Position numbers and translations under genes: made by a program. 64,000 bases of DNA, from the NCBI RefSeq assembly GCF_015840915.1, contig NZ_CP060398.1, forward strand, positions 2,542,001-2,606,000. Direction: 5' to 3'. The notes beneath the pieces were generated by a model. It did no database searches, was not told the DNA's origin, and was given only the letters and a program-made list of their open reading frames with translations. The stretch is from Synechococcus sp. CBW1002 (GTDB lineage: Bacteria; Cyanobacteriota; Cyanobacteriia; PCC-6307; Cyanobiaceae). Below are positions 22,410-47,863 of the stretch, in pieces (positions within the stretch are counted from its first letter, which is position 1; the number at the start of each line of letters is the position of its first letter).

Positions 22410-23304
22410 GTACCCGTTCAGGAGTCGGGACAGCTCGCAACGAACATCGGGCTTGCTGAACCCTTGACGGTGGCTTGATTCCTGGTTGCATCTCAGTAAG
22501 AGACTCCTTGCCATGACCACCCCACCGGCCGGGATTTCAGAAGCCGATTGGGCCGCCACCCCGGTGGGAGTGAAGGCTGGATTTCTTGAGCTGGTCAGTC
22601 AGTGCCAGAGGCAGCAACAGGAGATCGAGCAGCTCCGCATCCAGCTCACCGCCCTGGCGACCGAACTGGCCCATCTGCGCGAGCGGATCGGCCGCAGCTC
22701 CCGCAATTCTTCCAAGCCTCCCTCCAGTGATGGCCAGGGGTTTAAGCCGCCCGAACGACGCAAGGGCAGTGGCCGCAAGCGCGGCGGCCAGCCGGGCCAT
22801 CCCGGATCTGGGCCGGAGCTGCTGCCGATCGAGCGGGTGGATGAGGTGGTCGAGCACCACCCCCAGGCCTGCCGCCGCTGCGGCACGTTGCTACAGGGTC
22901 AGGATCCCGAGCCCTTGAGGCACCAGGTGATCGAGATTCCACCGATCACGCCTCTGGTGATCGAGCACCGGCTGCACCGCCTGGTCTGCCCCTGCTGTAC
23001 CACCAGCACCTGTGCCTCGTTACCGGCGGAGGTGGAAGTAAGCCATTACGGTCCCCGGCTCAGTGCTCTGGTGGGTCTGCTGGGTAGTGCCTTCCCGTTG
23101 AGTTTCAGCAAGACCCAGGCGCTGCTGGATCAGCTGCTGGGGGTACAGATCAGCCGGGGAGCGATGGCCACTATCCGCCAGCGCTTGAGTGCAGCACTGG
23201 AGCAGCCCATGCAGGAGGCCCTTGCGTTTGCCCGTCAGCAGTCGGTGGTCTATGTCGATGAAACCGGTGCCCCCACCGGTAATGCTGACGGTGGCAACCC
23301 CGAT
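22410..23304 (+). mobile_element. IS66-family element, 3' half lost
   Basis: The left end GTACCCGTTCAGGAGTCGG at 22410 matches the ends of the intact IS66 at 8070-9762. The element stops at 23304 where an IS3 begins, and the missing half is not found on the far side of the IS mosaic, so it was deleted. From about 22640 to 23280 the DNA looks identical to the intact copy, while the start of the gene and the last 25 bases differ. That pattern suggests recombination between related elements. Confidence 0.85.
22513..23304 (+). pseudogene. IS66 transposase, truncated at its C-terminus
   Basis: About 264 residues from the ATG at 22513 (MTTPPAGISEADW), covering the coiled coil, the zinc-binding Cys pairs and the first catalytic Asp (VVYVDETG), then stopping at GNPD where the IS3 starts. 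The second Asp and the Glu are lost, so it cannot catalyse transposition. Residues 1-45 differ from the intact copy; the rest is the same at protein level. Confidence 0.85.
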
Positions 23305-41089: not shown

Positions 41090-42334
41090 GGGCACCTCGA
41101 AAAATTAGCTGTTTCCCAGTGTTCTGCAGGCATGCAAAAAGCCGCCAATGGCGGCAGGCAGCAGAATTTTGTATCGGCGACTGAGCTTTTTACTGCGCTA
41201 TCGGATACTCCTTCGAGGATTCATGCCACCACTGGTGCATGGCTGATGCGCTGAAGATAGCGAAGGAAGTTGAAGGCCAGATTCTTGAGCCCCCACCATG
41301 CCTCGTTCCTTGCCAGCCCAATCTTTCGCGTCAGCTTCCCACCCATTGACATTGTCATGCAGCCGAAGACATGCTCCACACAAGCTCTAATGGCTGACTT
41401 GACGCGATTAAGGTCCTTGGCGGCGGCGCTGAGCGGGTGATTGCGAGCGCCCTTATCGTGGATCAAGCTTTCGAAGCGCCCCAAGCTCAGCAGATCTTCA
41501 AAGCACTCACCTGAATAAGCTGAGTCTGCCCAGACATAATCATGTTCATTCTCCGGATCCAGCAGCCGTGGAAGCATCTGACTGTCATGAATATTGGCAG
41601 GTGTAATAGCATATCGGCGGATAAAGCCATGGTCGACGTCAATGCAGATGCTGTTCTTGTAACCGAAGTAGTTGATGCCGTTCTTTTTAACCCAGCGAGC
41701 GTCTAGATCCTTCTGCCGCAGGCGATCTGGGTTTTCTTCCCAGCCTTCCGGCAGCCTACCAGCTTTGATTTCCTTGTTCTCGTCACGGGTGTTGCGCTGT
41801 TTGGGAACAGGTACGAGAGTCGCATCAATAATCTGACCACCACGGGCTTGGAGTCCCTGTGAGCGGAGGTATGCCTCGAACATCTCGAAGAGCTCCCCAA
41901 TCACTCCTGCTTTGCGCAGCCTCTCCCTGAACAAGGCGACTGTGGTTGCGTCAGGAATGTTGTTCATCACACCCAGTCCCACAAACTCCTCAAAGGAACG
42001 CCTGTCATTCACCTGGAACTCAAGCTCGTCATCGCTGAGGTTAAATAGCTGCTGGAGAACAAGCATCTTGAAAAGGATCAGCGGATCAATCCGCTTACGC
42101 CCTGCATTGCTCTTGCGATCCTGCGCGTATCCTTGGTCAAGTATCGGCTGGAATTTATCCCATGGGATCGAATCAGACAGCCGCTTGAGAACCGGCTTCT
42201 TCTCCTGGAGCTTTGCGACCCTTTGCTGTTCGTCCCAAAAACCTCTTTGGCCCACCGCTGGCATACAGTCTGACTTCCTGATTCTATCGCTATTTCATCG
42301 TAATCAACCAGCTTGCTGATTTTTCGAGGTGCCC
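41090..42334 (-). mobile_element. IS5-family element, intact, 1245 bp
   Basis: The ends match as inverted repeats (GGGCACCTCGAAAAAT at 41090 and on the other strand from 42334). The 4-bp duplication ATAA flanks it (41086-41089, 42335-42338). One intact transposase gene is inside. The same end sequence borders the 110-bp MITE at 46350-46459, so this is the likely source of the MITE's transposase. Confidence 0.93.
41221..42264 (-). CDS. IS5-family transposase
   Basis: A 347-residue transposase (MPAVGQRGFWDEQQRVAKLQ start). The N-terminal DUF772-like part has GRKRIDPLILFKMLVLQQLFNLSDDELEFQV. The DDE core follows: GGQIIDATLVPVPKQR (Asp), YVWADSAYSGECFE (Asp) and a C-terminal RACVEHVFGCMTMSMGGK (Glu). 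The YREK-like spacing is usual for IS5. Intact and therefore possibly active in moving its own element and the MITE. Confidence 0.92.
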   Translation of the reverse strand: MPAVGQRGFWDEQQRVAKLQEKKPVLKRLSDSIPWDKFQPILDQGYAQDRKSNAGRKRIDPLILFKMLVLQQLFNLSDDELEFQVNDRRSFEEFVGLGVMNNIPDATTVALFRERLRKAGVIGELFEMFEAYLRSQGLQARGGQIIDATLVPVPKQRNTRDENKEIKAGRLPEGWEENPDRLRQKDLDARWVKKNGINYFGYKNSICIDVDHGFIRRYAITPANIHDSQMLPRLLDPENEHDYVWADSAYSGECFEDLLSLGRFESLIHDKGARNHPLSAAAKDLNRVKSAIRACVEHVFGCMTMSMGGKLTRKIGLARNEAWWGLKNLAFNFLRYLQRISHAPVVA

Positions 42335-42522
42335 ATAAGTCAGTGGGTTAAGAGTACTTTTGGAGCTAGCGGCAATGATTCGCATACCTTCAGAACAAGA
42401 AATCTGTTCTCAACCGACTGGCTGACTCGGTTTTGCGAGAATCCTCTTGATCTCTTCTTGATAAAGACTATGCATACGAGCGGCGGTGACTTTCAGGGAA
42501 GGTGTCACTCCTTGGCTGCCAT

Positions 42523-43668
42523 TTAGACGGCCTCGGTTAAGGGTAGCGCGAGGATCGGATCGGGTTCCTCTGGTGGCTTGTTGATCCACACTTCTTCGGG
42601 TTGACGCCAGCAGCGGGTGCTTCGGCTCCAGCGTCTTGGATGGGCCTGACGGGCCTTCTCGTAGACATTGGCTCGCTGCTGGCAAATTGCCTTCGCGGCA
42701 CCGCTGTGACGCTGGTGAGGCGTCACGAATTTGATGCCGCTGTGGCGGTGTTGATGGTTGTACCAGTCGACAAACGCCGACACCCACTCACACGCCTCTT
42801 CTTTGCTGGTAAACGGCCGACTGGGGTAGTCGGGCCGGTACTTGAACGTGCGGAACAAGGCTTCCGAGAAGGGATTGTCATTCGAAACCCTGGGCCGAGA
42901 GAACGACCGCAGGACACCCAACTCCTCCAGCCGCGCCTCGAGTGTGGCGGCGCGCATGGCATTGCCGTTGTCGGCATGGAGGATCAGCGGCAGGGGGGTG
43001 GACTGGTTGGCGCCACATCCCCTTGGGCGGCGGTAACGCTCCTTGAGACAGGCTCGCTGCACCAGATCCGCCGCGATCTCAGCCGATTCCACCTCAGCCA
43101 TATCCCAGGCCACCACCTTGCGGCTCCAGACGTCGACCACTAGGTAGAGGTAAAGCCACACACCCCGGACTGTGGTCGGCAGATAGGTGATGTCCCAGCT
43201 CCAAACCCGGTTTGGGCCATCCGCCCTGAGGCGCGGCACGGAGCGCGGTTCCTGCGGCAACCGGGCCCGCCCACGTCGGTGACACTGCCCTGCCTGGTGC
43301 AACACCCGGTAGAAACTGCTCTCGGAGGCGATATAGAGGCCCTGATCCGCCAGCGCTGGCACGATCTGCCCGGGCGGAAGCGAGGCGTACTCCGGTTGGT
43401 TGCACGTCAGCAGGATCCGCTGGCGCTCCTCCTCCGTCAGCCGGTGAACGACCAGGCGAGGACTTCCTTTACGGCGGTCCTCGCCGTCCCCATCACCCAG
43501 AAAGGCCTTCCGCCATCGTTTGAGGGTACGCAGGCAGATGCCGATCTCACCGCATGCGCTCACCAGGCCGGCTCCAGCCGCATGCGCCTCGCCGATCAGC
43601 TCGATCACCTTCCGCCGGTGCGCGGCGCTGGTCAACCTTCCGCGTCCTCCGAGCAGAAGGCATCCCAC
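42523..43668 (-). CDS. IS3-family OrfB transposase (second type)
   Basis: A 381-residue DDE protein. N-terminal HTH (GLVSACGEIGICLRTLKRWRKAF) then the catalytic core: VWSWDITYLPT (Asp), LILHADNGNAMR (Asp) and DNPFSEALFRTFKYRPDYP (Glu). A C-terminal basic tail follows. It overlaps OrfA by 37 bases in another frame, so it may start at its own ATG or come from a frame change. Intact. Confidence 0.9.
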   Translation of the reverse strand: MGCLLLGGRGRLTSAAHRRKVIELIGEAHAAGAGLVSACGEIGICLRTLKRWRKAFLGDGDGEDRRKGSPRLVVHRLTEEERQRILLTCNQPEYASLPPGQIVPALADQGLYIASESSFYRVLHQAGQCHRRGRARLPQEPRSVPRLRADGPNRVWSWDITYLPTTVRGVWLYLYLVVDVWSRKVVAWDMAEVESAEIAADLVQRACLKERYRRPRGCGANQSTPLPLILHADNGNAMRAATLEARLEELGVLRSFSRPRVSNDNPFSEALFRTFKYRPDYPSRPFTSKEEACEWVSAFVDWYNHQHRHSGIKFVTPHQRHSGAAKAICQQRANVYEKARQAHPRRWSRSTRCWRQPEEVWINKPPEEPDPILALPLTEAV

Positions 43669-44138
43669 TTTTTTCGCAGCACCAGCAAGGCCGCCGCCTC
43701 CGCCAGGGCCTTCTCCTTGCGCTGCAGCTCCTTCTTGAGTGCTTTGATCTCTCGCTGGTCCTGGGCACGGAGCCTTTCGAGCTCCTTTTGCTCGGCCATC
43801 GTCAGCACCGGCTTGGCGTTGGCATCCTGAGCGGTCTGACGCCAGCGGCTCACCTGCTCAGGAAAGAGCCCCCGCTCGCGGCAATAGGCACTGAGCTCAG
43901 TGGCGTTCAACCCGGCCGTCTCCAGCACCACCGTGAACTTGTCGGCAGCACTCCAGCCATCTGGTTCCTTCTGAGATGCCGGCACCACCTCTCCCTGCAA
44001 CCGCCACGTCTTCCTCCATTTGTAGAGGGTGATCACGTGGATGCCCAGCTCTTCTGAAATCCGGGCCACGCTCTGCCTGTGCGGCGGGCTCATCCGCCTT
44101 CTCACATCAGCCTTGACGGCCTCGCTGTAACGACGCAT
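43632..44138 (-). CDS. IS3-family OrfA (second type)
   Basis: A 168-residue protein with two HTH parts (ISEELGIHVITLYKWRKTW and TELSAYCRERGLFPEQVSRW), then a coiled coil (EQKELERLRAQDQREIKALKKELQRKEKAL). It recognises the element ends. A relic of a related protein lies at 39855-40010. Its promoter region holds the IS256 insertion 34 bases upstream. Confidence 0.88.
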   Translation of the reverse strand: MRRYSEAVKADVRRRMSPPHRQSVARISEELGIHVITLYKWRKTWRLQGEVVPASQKEPDGWSAADKFTVVLETAGLNATELSAYCRERGLFPEQVSRWRQTAQDANAKPVLTMAEQKELERLRAQDQREIKALKKELQRKEKALAEAAALLVLRKKWDAFCSEDAEG

Positions 44139-44456
44139 TGGTCATGTCCTCAAGCCCCCGGATGTACGGATGGGCCGCGTCCCTTGGCGTGGTGTAAATC
44201 CCGAGGCCCGATTGCCCTGGACTGAGGGAGAACAGGGGTGAATGACGGGCTGTCATTCTCGAGGCGCATGTGCACCTCGTTATTTCACGATGAATCCAGA
44301 CGATTGACTTGTCAAGTCTTTCGTCTGGATTGCCGATCGGTTGTGGGCTACACCTGCAATCTTGGTCGTGACGTCTGCGGTGCCGGCCCCCGGGCGGTGA
44401 TCGCCGCCGCTGCGCCCTGTGGGGGCGCTACGGCGCGATCTCCTGGGGCCTGAGGC

Positions 44457-45690
44457 TCAGGCCGCTGCTTCTTGCAAGGAAGGCTGCGTGGGCAGCTCCG
44501 CCAGTGAGGGGATGGCGGCCATGCTCTCGGCGGAGAACATGCGCCGGCCCTCCAGCTGCCAGTGCTCGTCCTGCTCCAGCAGCACAGCCCCCACCAAGCG
44601 GGTGATCGAGGCGTCATTCGGGAAGATGCCAACCACCCGAGTGCGGCGTTTGATCTCCTCATTGAGGCGCTCGAGCAGGTTGGTGCTCCAAGTCTTTTTC
44701 CAGTGTTGAGGCGGGAAGTGACGGAAGGCGAGCACGTCTTCCCGGGCGTGCAGCATGAGCTCAGCAGCCTTGGGGAAGCGATCCACCAGTGAGCTGGCCA
44801 GATCGTCCCAGCGGGCCTCGATTTCGTCCGTTTTCTCCTGGGCGAACACCGAGCGCAAGGCAGCGGTGACCATGCCTTGGTGGGCCTTGGGCACCCGTTG
44901 GAGCAGGTTTCTGGCGAAATGGACCCTGCAGCGCTGCCAGCAGCTGCCCTGCAGCATCCGCCGGATCGCCTTGGTGAGGCCCACGTGCGCGTCGCTGATC
45001 ACGAGCTTGACCCCAGTGAGGCCGCGCTCCTTGAGCGAGCCAATGAACTCGCTCCAGAAGCTCTCGGTTTCGCTGTCGCCCACCTTGATGCCGAGCAGCT
45101 CGCGGCGACCATCGGCATTGACGCCCATGGCCACCACCACAGCCCTGGAGCAGACCTGCATCGCCTTGCCGAGACGCCCGTGGAGATAGGTGGCATCGAG
45201 GTACAGGTAGGCGTAGCCGGTGGCCTCAAGGGGGCGGTTCAGGAAGGCCTGCACCTGGATGTCGATGTCAGCGCAGATGCGGCTCACCTGAGATTTGGAG
45301 ATGCCGCTCTGGACTCCCAGGGCGGCCACCAGGGCGTCGACCTTGCGCGTTGAGATGCCGCCGACATAGGCCTCCATCACCACGCCGTAGAGGGCCTGGT
45401 CCACACGGCGGCGCGGCTCCAGGATCGAGGGCAGGTGGCTGCCGGAGCGCAGTTTGGGGATGCGGAGATCGATGTCCCCCACCTGGGTGGCCAGGGTGCG
45501 CGGCCGGTAGCCGTTGCGGTAGCCGAGCCGCTCCTCGCTGCGCTCATGGCGCTCTGCGCCGAGCACGGCAGCGACCTCCAGCTCGATCAGCTGCTGCAGG
45601 CCGTGGCGCACCAGCTCGGGGATCAGCTCACCGGCGCTGCTGCCATCCAGTAGCGGCGCCAGCTCAATTGCGGCACGATTGGACGTGGGC
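44457..45690 (-). pseudogene. IS256-family transposase, start codon split by the intron
   Basis: The coding part begins CCC ACG TCC right after the G at 45690; the AT of the ATG lies at 47673-47674 across the intron, and joined they read MPTSNRAAIELAPLL. The 411-residue protein has the mutator-type DDE core: YLYLDATYLHGR (Asp), VKLVISDAHVGLTKA (Asp), QRCRVHFARNLLQ (CxxH-like) and FPNDASITRLVGAVLLEQDEHW near the end, with TNLLERLNEEIKRRTR (Glu). The intron is antisense to this gene, so splicing cannot repair the mRNA. An internal start at 45611 could give a shortened protein. Confidence 0.88.
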
Positions 45691-46230
45691 GTGTGTCACG
45701 AGTCAGCAGGTGAAAGCCAAGGCTGATGAAACTGCATCGGGGATGGGAGTGTGGCCTCCCGGGATCGGCCTGCAGGGGCTGGTACCAAACCACCCCGTGC
45801 TGCTGCGTTCAAAAGACGTGGTGGTGAGCGACGGGGAAACGGCGGACTGGATCCGTCAGGTGTGCGACGAGAAGGTGAGCGCAAGCGAACCGTTGATGAC
45901 GCGCCGATATCTATTTCAGACGCTGCCAAAACGGGAGGCGGCCCAAATCTCCTGGATCAGTGTGGACAGAGCCTGTCTATGGACCACACGGCAGCCGGCG
46001 TATAGACGGCACGAGCTCATCGCAGGCCCTGATGCGGAACGTGAGAACCTGCCATGGAATGCCAAGGGAACATCCCAAGTGGTCACCACCATGAGGGTCA
46101 ATACCGATGTCTGTGGCAGGGGCGGAGCAACCCGTAGTAGCGATGATGGGTCTGTAACGGACTCGGAGCCAAGGGGTTGCATCATCCCGTTTGGAGTCTC
46201 CCATCAACTGCCTACGGCAGGAGGAATGGG

Positions 46231-47595
46231 ATGACAACAGACAAGCCGCTACCGATTACCAAGGTGATGGTCTGGAAGGCCTATCAACAGGTGAAACGGA
46301 ACGGACAGGCGGCCGGTGTGGATGGCCAAAGCCTGGACGACTTCAACAAGGGCACCTCGAAAAATTGCCTCCACCAAGACGGAGCCCTCAAGCCTGGCCT
46401 GACGTGGCAATGAGTCTCAATTGCCGGATCCCGCAGATCCCGAATTTTTCGAGGTGCCCACAAGGATCTGGAGAATAATCTCTACAAACTCTGGAATCGG
46501 ATGGCATCAGGAAGTTATCTTCCGCCACCAGTTCGGCGTGTGGAGATTCCCAAATCCGGTGGAGGCGTCAGGCCGCTGGGTATCCCGACGGTTGCTGATC
46601 GCATCGCACAGATGGTGGTCAAGCAGGTGCTGGAGCCAGAGCTGGAGCTGATCTTTGATCAGGATTCCTACGGCTACAGACCGGGCAAGTCAGCGCATCA
46701 GGCAGTAGAGGTCTGCCGTCAGCGCTGCTGGAGGTCCAACTGGGTTCTCGATCTCGACATCAAGGGGTTTTTCGATGCTATCGATCACGACCTGTTGATG
46801 CGCGCGATCAAGGCCCATACCTCCGAGCGCTGGGTGGTGCTCTACCTGCAACGATGGCTGCAGGCACCGGTTCTGTTGCCGGATGGCACGCTCCATCCCA
46901 GGGACCGGGGCACACCGCAAGGTGGTGTCATCAGTCCACTGCTGGCCAATCTGTTCCTGCACTATGCGTTTGATGTGTGGATGCGCCGGAGCCACCCGGC
47001 CATTGCCTTTGAGCGCTATGCAGATGATGTGATCTGTCATTGCCACAGCGAGAAGGAAGCTCGGCGGTTGCTGGAGGCATTGCAGGATCGCTTTGCGTCC
47101 TGTGGCCTCCAGCTTCATCCCCAGAAGACCCAGGTGGTCTACTGCAGGGATAGCAACCGCCGGGCACCGTTTGCTGATGTCACGTTCACGTTTCTTGGTT
47201 TCGCGTTTCGGCCACGTGTGTCTCGCAATTCTCGCGGAGTCATCTACACAGGCTTTTTGCCGGCAGTGAGTCCGCAGGCTCTCCAGCGTATGCGGGAGAG
47301 GATTAGGTCGATAGGGCTTCCATCGCTCGTGTATCTGTCGCTTGAGGAGATCGCTAAAGTGCTGAATCCAGTGATTCGTGGCTGGATTCAGTACTACGGT
47401 CGTTTCTATAGGACAGAACTGATCAGGAAGTTGTATCGCTACCTGGATGACAGAATTGCAGCCTGGTTACGGCAGAAGTACAAAAGGCTGCGGGGTCGTC
47501 GGCTCCAAAGCTGGCGAGTACTTGCCAGGATCAGGTCTGGACATCGTGATCTGTTCGCGCACTGGCGTCGAGTCAGTGAAGTGGCATGTGGATGA
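46231..47595 (+). pseudogene. Group II intron reverse transcriptase/maturase, split by a MITE
   Basis: From the ATG at 46231, preceded by AGGAGG, the N-terminal 40 residues (ITKVMVWKAYQQVKRNGQAAGVDG) are followed by a 110-bp MITE with an in-frame TGA. The frame resumes with DLENNLYKLW. The RT core is complete: VRPLGIPTVADRIAQ, NWVLDLDIKGFFDAIDH, GTPQGGVISPLLANLFL and the YADD motif (FERYADDVICH). The maturase domain has GWIQYYGRFYR. No HNH endonuclease domain is present. Restored length about 416 residues. Now only a fragment from Met46501 could be made, lacking the first RT motif. Confidence 0.9.
46350..46459. mobile_element. 110-bp MITE with IS5-type ends
   Basis: Its 17-bp perfect inverted repeats (GGGCACCTCGAAAAATT) match the ends of the IS5 element at 41090-42334. 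The 4-bp duplication ACAA flanks it (46346-46349, 46460-46463), and its removal restores the reverse transcriptase frame. It has no coding capacity. Its interior (about 76 bp) does not resemble the IS5. Confidence 0.93.
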
Positions 47596-47598
47596 TGG

Positions 47599-47632
47599 GA
47601 GCCGTATGACGCGAGAGTGTCACGTACGGTTC
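47599..47632 (+). ncRNA. Group II intron domain V
   Basis: A 34-base hairpin: GAGCCGTA pairs with TACGGTTC (one G-U), then a bulge, then ACGC with GTGT around a GAGA tetraloop of the GNRA type. The AGC near its 5' end is the catalytic triad position. This is the most conserved part of the intron ribozyme. Confidence 0.9.
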
Positions 47633-47863
47633 TGTGAGCACCTCGGGGGGAAGTTCCCCGGGGTGACTCGACATGGTTCGTCTGGTTGAGGTAGTGCTCA
47701 AACCAGGGTCACGGGCCTGCCCACCCCTTGCAACGCTGGCCGCTGAGCGGAACGTCTGAGGTGCGCGCTCAACCCCGGCTACGCCGGGGTTGAGGTCCCC
47801 AGGGATTTACACCAACACAGGGGACGCAAGCTACGGATGAGAGGGGTGACATCTTTCCTGAAA

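Follow-up and report, generated by a model that had tools for sequence, protein, structure and literature searches.

The cyanobacterial MITE Nezha reportedly lacks coding sequence, is short and active, has inverted ends, and is mobilised by a related insertion sequence (IS). Both Nezha, from filamentous cyanobacteria (Zhou et al. 2008), and the ISSoc2-derived MITEs of thermophilic Synechococcus (Nelson et al. 2012) are cited in PMC10969869. The element analyzed in this work, MITE copy M1, lies in a 64,000-nucleotide stretch of the Synechococcus sp. CBW1002 genome (the window). By description, the family of M1 resembles Nezha in that both are short non-coding cyanobacterial elements with inverted ends, but the host group differs; like the ISSoc2 MITEs it is paired with an IS in Synechococcus, but those belong to a hot-spring lineage and to another IS. 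In the literature library searched, no description of this MITE family was found. The family is a new one within an ordinary, known class of MITEs, and what appears unusual about it is a fixed length together with one conserved internal sequence.

M1 starts with GGGCACCTCGAAAAATT, ends with AATTTTTCGAGGTGCCC, and has 17-bp terminal inverted repeats that are perfect (Table 1). At 110 bp and with no transposase gene, it falls within the size limit of ∼500 bp for MITEs. An earlier interpretation made from the letters alone (the sequence-only reading) had placed a non-coding element at exactly these coordinates and had claimed that its 16–17-bp ends were common to it and the IS5-family IS at 41090–42334; the two elements agree at 17 of 17 positions on the left and 16 of 17 on the right. 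Beyond the ends, the interior of M1 has nothing in common with this IS (best match 13 bp at 92%, E 0.25).

Table 1. Features of the M1 insertion and of its candidate helper IS (positions in the window).
Feature	Position	Strand	Details
IS5-family insertion sequence, candidate helper	41090..42334	-	1245 bp, flanked by ATAA
Transposase	41221..42264	-	347 aa; DUF772 + DDE_Tnp_1 (Pfam); NCBIfam NF033581 IS5 family
Group II intron carrying M1	45745..47672	+	Rfam landmarks only; true ends slightly outside
Intron reverse transcriptase/maturase gene	46231..47595	+	M1 interrupts at codon 40; frame read across insert
ACAA target-site duplication, left copy	46346..46349	.	ACAA single in eight empty intron copies; flanks join exactly to locus L007
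MITE copy M1	46350..46459	.	110 bp, without own coding capacity; repeated in genome, inverted ends, target duplication
Left terminal inverted repeat GGGCACCTCGAAAAATT	46350..46366	+	Identical to first 17 bp of IS left end
Conserved internal core ATGAGTCTCA	46410..46419	+	Element positions 61-70; includes maturase-stopping TGA (46411-46413)
Right terminal inverted repeat	46443..46459	-	Perfect inverted copy of left end
ACAA target-site duplication, right copy	46460..46463	.	Same basis as left ACAA copy

The intron that carries M1 was recognized by two Rfam landmarks, RF01999 for the 5′ part (45745–45861) and RF00029 for the 3′ catalytic domain (47597–47672). M1 and its duplication amount to 114 bp, or 38 codons, so the maturase frame is kept, and translation of the maturase is stopped by the in-frame TGA within the conserved core of the element. 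What is left is a stub of 60 codons and, starting with the ATG at 46501, an open remainder of 364 codons, in line with the claim of the sequence-only reading that an in-frame stop splits the gene; the remainder downstream of M1 matches TIGR04416 (387.6 bits). At the corresponding site, eight further intron copies of this genome lack the insert and carry one ACAA each, and the 4-bp duplication that had been claimed for M1 is thus seen against its empty site. When the flanks of M1 were joined computationally, they were 100% identical over 2119 bp to one empty intron copy and 99.9% identical over 1533 bp to another. The complete identity over 2119 bp indicates that the insertion of M1 into the intron is very recent. 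Intact intron copies could supply maturase in trans to the copy broken by M1.

The region from 41090 to 47672 is a pile of mobile elements, which includes the IS5-family IS, a two-frame rve/HTH IS at 42523–44138, a Mutator-type transposase at 44457–45611, and the group II intron, of which the genome has at least nine copies.

The genome consists of one contig of 3.85 Mb, and genome-wide counts were obtained from targeted searches. They found four MITEs of the M1 type (M1 in the window, M2 at 408652, M3 at 628655, and M4 at 3016088), three copies of a 111-bp sister type (at 623728, 852573, and 3399160), and one decayed relative at 22747. M2 is identical to M1 over 110 bp, and M4 and M3 have 1–2 differences. 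The duplications at these MITE copies are 4 bp in most cases (ACAA, TTAA, TTGA, AGAA, and ATAT), with one mismatch each at M2 and at the copy at 3399160; among 46 distinct insertions from many genomes, 28 have a perfect 4-bp duplication. Four copies of the IS are ∼100% identical, encode the same intact 347-aa transposase, and are each flanked by a 4-bp duplication (ATAA, GTAA, TTGA, and TTCA); two further copies are older, one of them 97% identical with a stop codon and the other 94% identical and split by M4 in the N-terminal region. A search with the 17-bp end at up to 2 mismatches gave 27 sites in the genome (none with a control pattern), and each of them belongs to an IS copy, to a MITE (one of these decayed), or to a lone end at 2937399. 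The count of elements with common ends that the sequence-only reading had proposed therefore comes to 4 + 3 MITEs plus 1 relic and to 4 + 2 older IS copies, and a single-copy MITE, which it had named as evidence against its view, is not what the genome contains. Its suggestion of an active pair also agrees with signs that both partners moved recently, namely the identical copies and the near-perfect empty site.

Several of these copies lie in notable surroundings. M4 (L150:3589-3698; genome 3016088-3016197), flanked by a TTGA duplication, interrupts an older copy of the very IS type that is its presumed helper. The sister-type copy N2 (L148:3574-3684; genome 852573-852683) is at the 5′ end of a SpoIIE/HAMP gene, and an in-frame ATG within N2 (Met-Ser-Leu-Thr-Arg...) prolongs the 687-aa frame into the element; this gene may naturally start downstream of that ATG. 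A 6S RNA gene (RF00013; L149:4244-4425, minus strand) is ∼470 bp from MITE copy N3. M1 lies 4.0 kb and M2 5.6 kb from an IS copy, and M4 has inserted into one, an arrangement found in 3 of 10,000 random placements; the region in the window being a pile of insertion sequences, clustering in insertion-tolerant DNA is an equally good explanation of this closeness.

The transposase of the candidate helper scores 254.8 bits against NF033581 (cut-off 140). The features that this IS has in common with the IS5 family (NF033581, IS5_4) are the 16–17-bp ends and the A/T-rich 4-bp duplication, and its transposase is only ∼48–49% identical to the nearest transposases in a plasmid collection. The IS5 subgroup has a preference for A/T-rich targets.

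The MITE family ranges across freshwater cyanobacteria of the Synechococcus type. When 84,980 species genomes were searched for exact matches, 15 stretches were recovered, and almost all of them belong to Synechococcus, Cyanobium, or uncultured cyanobacteria; one match labelled Bifidobacterium comes from a metagenome bin and is probably mis-binned. Synechococcus sp. CS-1328 is a same-genus relative with the MITE (the copy in genome G001 equals that in locus L070). MITE-type elements were present in 20 of 400 genomes (∼5%) of the taxonomic family of the host and in only one of ∼255 other cyanobacteria, and no phage or plasmid carrier of the MITE was matched. Of 25 genomes with MITE or partial-MITE matches, 13 contain relatives of the transposase, vs 2 of 15 others (Fisher p 0.02, many of these genomes being incomplete bins). 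In genome G116, from another cyanobacterial family, a multi-copy element is cut off at contig ends (L139:1759-1811, L140:1617-1670, and L055:1-54); it has the same ends as the MITE and a 37-bp end stretch that is 84% MITE-like, and it may represent either another MITE or a parent IS.

The lengths of these elements were surveyed using exact 13-bp ends and a total length left free between 97 and 157 bp. The 38 elements in the family of the host fall into two classes, 108–113 bp (28 elements, mostly 110–111) and 128–131 bp (10 elements, mostly 131), and one other family has elements of 119 and 120 bp. When up to 3 end mismatches were allowed, a few elements of 132–134 bp joined the longer class; no element of 37–97 or 157–217 bp was found in the 25 genomes searched. 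Similarity of the interiors places 110-bp and 128–131-bp members together in two groups, and a related pair of 108 and 128 bp differs by a 17–20-bp insertion. The length of the MITE is thus kept to narrow bands even as its sequence drifts. The spacing of the bands near whole helical turns is suggestive only, as a periodicity score, computed from too few independent length classes, showed no sharp preference for 10.5 over 10 bp.

Within the 110-bp class, interiors have a mean identity of ∼49% (11 divergent representatives). Columns 61–70 (ATGAGTCTCA) stand out with a mean of 1.71 bits vs 0.91 for the next best ten columns, a value reached in 0 of 20,000 permutations; in the 131-bp class the core is not significant (permutation p 0.41). 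This core is near-palindromic and is absent from the helper IS. Apart from two weak sites, a genome search that allowed up to 2 mismatches gave no further occurrence of its dyad, and a common host operator was rejected on this basis. We also considered a small gene reading outward from the core (Met-Ser-Leu...). Its frame runs for 16–17 codons before the end of the element and is open in 17 of 21 members, the other 4 having a stop; this candidate was rejected because of stops in several subfamilies and because 110- and 111-bp members do not have the same frame.

The sequence-only reading had held that the interior of the MITE is unrelated to the IS. This stands for the IS of the window, so that M1 as a deletion derivative of that IS, which would retain IS interior, was rejected, but it does not hold for the sister 131-bp MITEs of another species. 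In genome G049, there are IS copies whose end upstream of the transposase aligns over ∼100 bp with the arms of the 131-bp class, and the interior scores 38–51 where the shuffled maximum is 27. The IS copies with this MITE-homologous end are at L119:1032-2589 and L110:1245-2682, and a 134-bp MITE lies 60 bp from the L110 copy. Because the 131-bp MITEs match ∼100 bp of a related IS end, the MITE superfamily probably arose from IS ends. The 110-bp interior was compared with 14 IS, none of which is clearly alike beyond the ends (best score 30, null maximum 27), and the term IS5-derived, as it had been used, is unproven for this class. It is plausible that IS ends gave rise to the MITEs long ago and that the 110-bp interior has since diverged, or that the parent IS was lost.

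From the common ends, the duplications, and the copies of both partners, we consider it highly likely that M1 is a non-autonomous element mobilised by an IS5-family transposase that acts, presumably in trans, on those ends. An IS5-family DDE transposase, most likely from the IS at 41090–42334 and its identical copies, would bind the 16–17-bp ends (GGGCACCTCGAAAAAT), cut the MITE out, and insert it at A/T-rich, TTAA-like sites, making the 4-bp duplication; by this route M1 would have landed in codon 40 of the intron maturase and inactivated that copy. Another DDE transposase of the host (DUF772/DDE_Tnp_1) might instead move the MITE, the likeness to the IS ends in the window then reflecting ancestry only. 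Other DUF772-type transposases do adjoin M2 and M4, and several MITE-bearing genomes, such as G001 (94% complete), have no close relative of the helper transposase at 1e-40, which means that a genome with the MITE can lack the helper or have a more distant one. However, the genome has no other intact element with these 16–17-bp ends at up to 3 mismatches, and the possibility raised in the sequence-only reading, that the ends better match another IS, found no such intact element to bear it out. The IS of the window was moreover recently active, given its four identical copies, and makes a 4-bp duplication as the MITE does. We regard movement by another transposase as improbable.

A second alternative is that the MITE is a functional repeat (a structured RNA, a terminator, or a protein-binding site) that was spread by an IS and kept for host benefit, with the core as a regulator site. 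The near-palindromic 10-bp core, strongly conserved in an otherwise diverged interior, would fit such a role, as would the positions of N2 at the 5′ end of a SpoIIE/HAMP gene and of N3 near the 6S RNA gene, but the core dyad has only two weak sites elsewhere in the genome and copies M1 and M4 disrupt genes. Single-strand folding lies far below that of shuffled sequences (z about −5), an excess that comes largely from the inverted ends; the folds of the interior vary among members and an Rfam search with the element gave no match even at E 1, for which reasons a structured RNA was rejected. Retention of the MITE for a host function is very improbable.

The fixed length and the conserved core, two features that the sequence-only reading had not covered, may represent cis requirements for mobilisation or maintenance, and the core may serve either the transpososome or a host factor as a cis site. 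A more specific proposal, which we put forward as unlikely but worth stating, starts from total lengths at discrete values ∼10 or 20 bp apart (110–111, 119–120, and 128–131 bp) and from the fixed position of the core: the transpososome would need a defined helical phasing of the two ends, and the core would be bound by a factor of the host or one specific to the element. If this were true, the MITE would be more than two transposase sites around filler, and its mobilisation would have cis rules of its own.

The family shows mobile elements breaking one another, with one MITE in an intron maturase and another in a copy of its own helper type. It also provides a clean pair of helper and MITE that moved recently, in a genome that is complete and has documented empty sites, and a spread over many relatives. 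Two general questions about MITEs thereby become testable: the reason for their constant length, and whether required sequence lies in their interiors.
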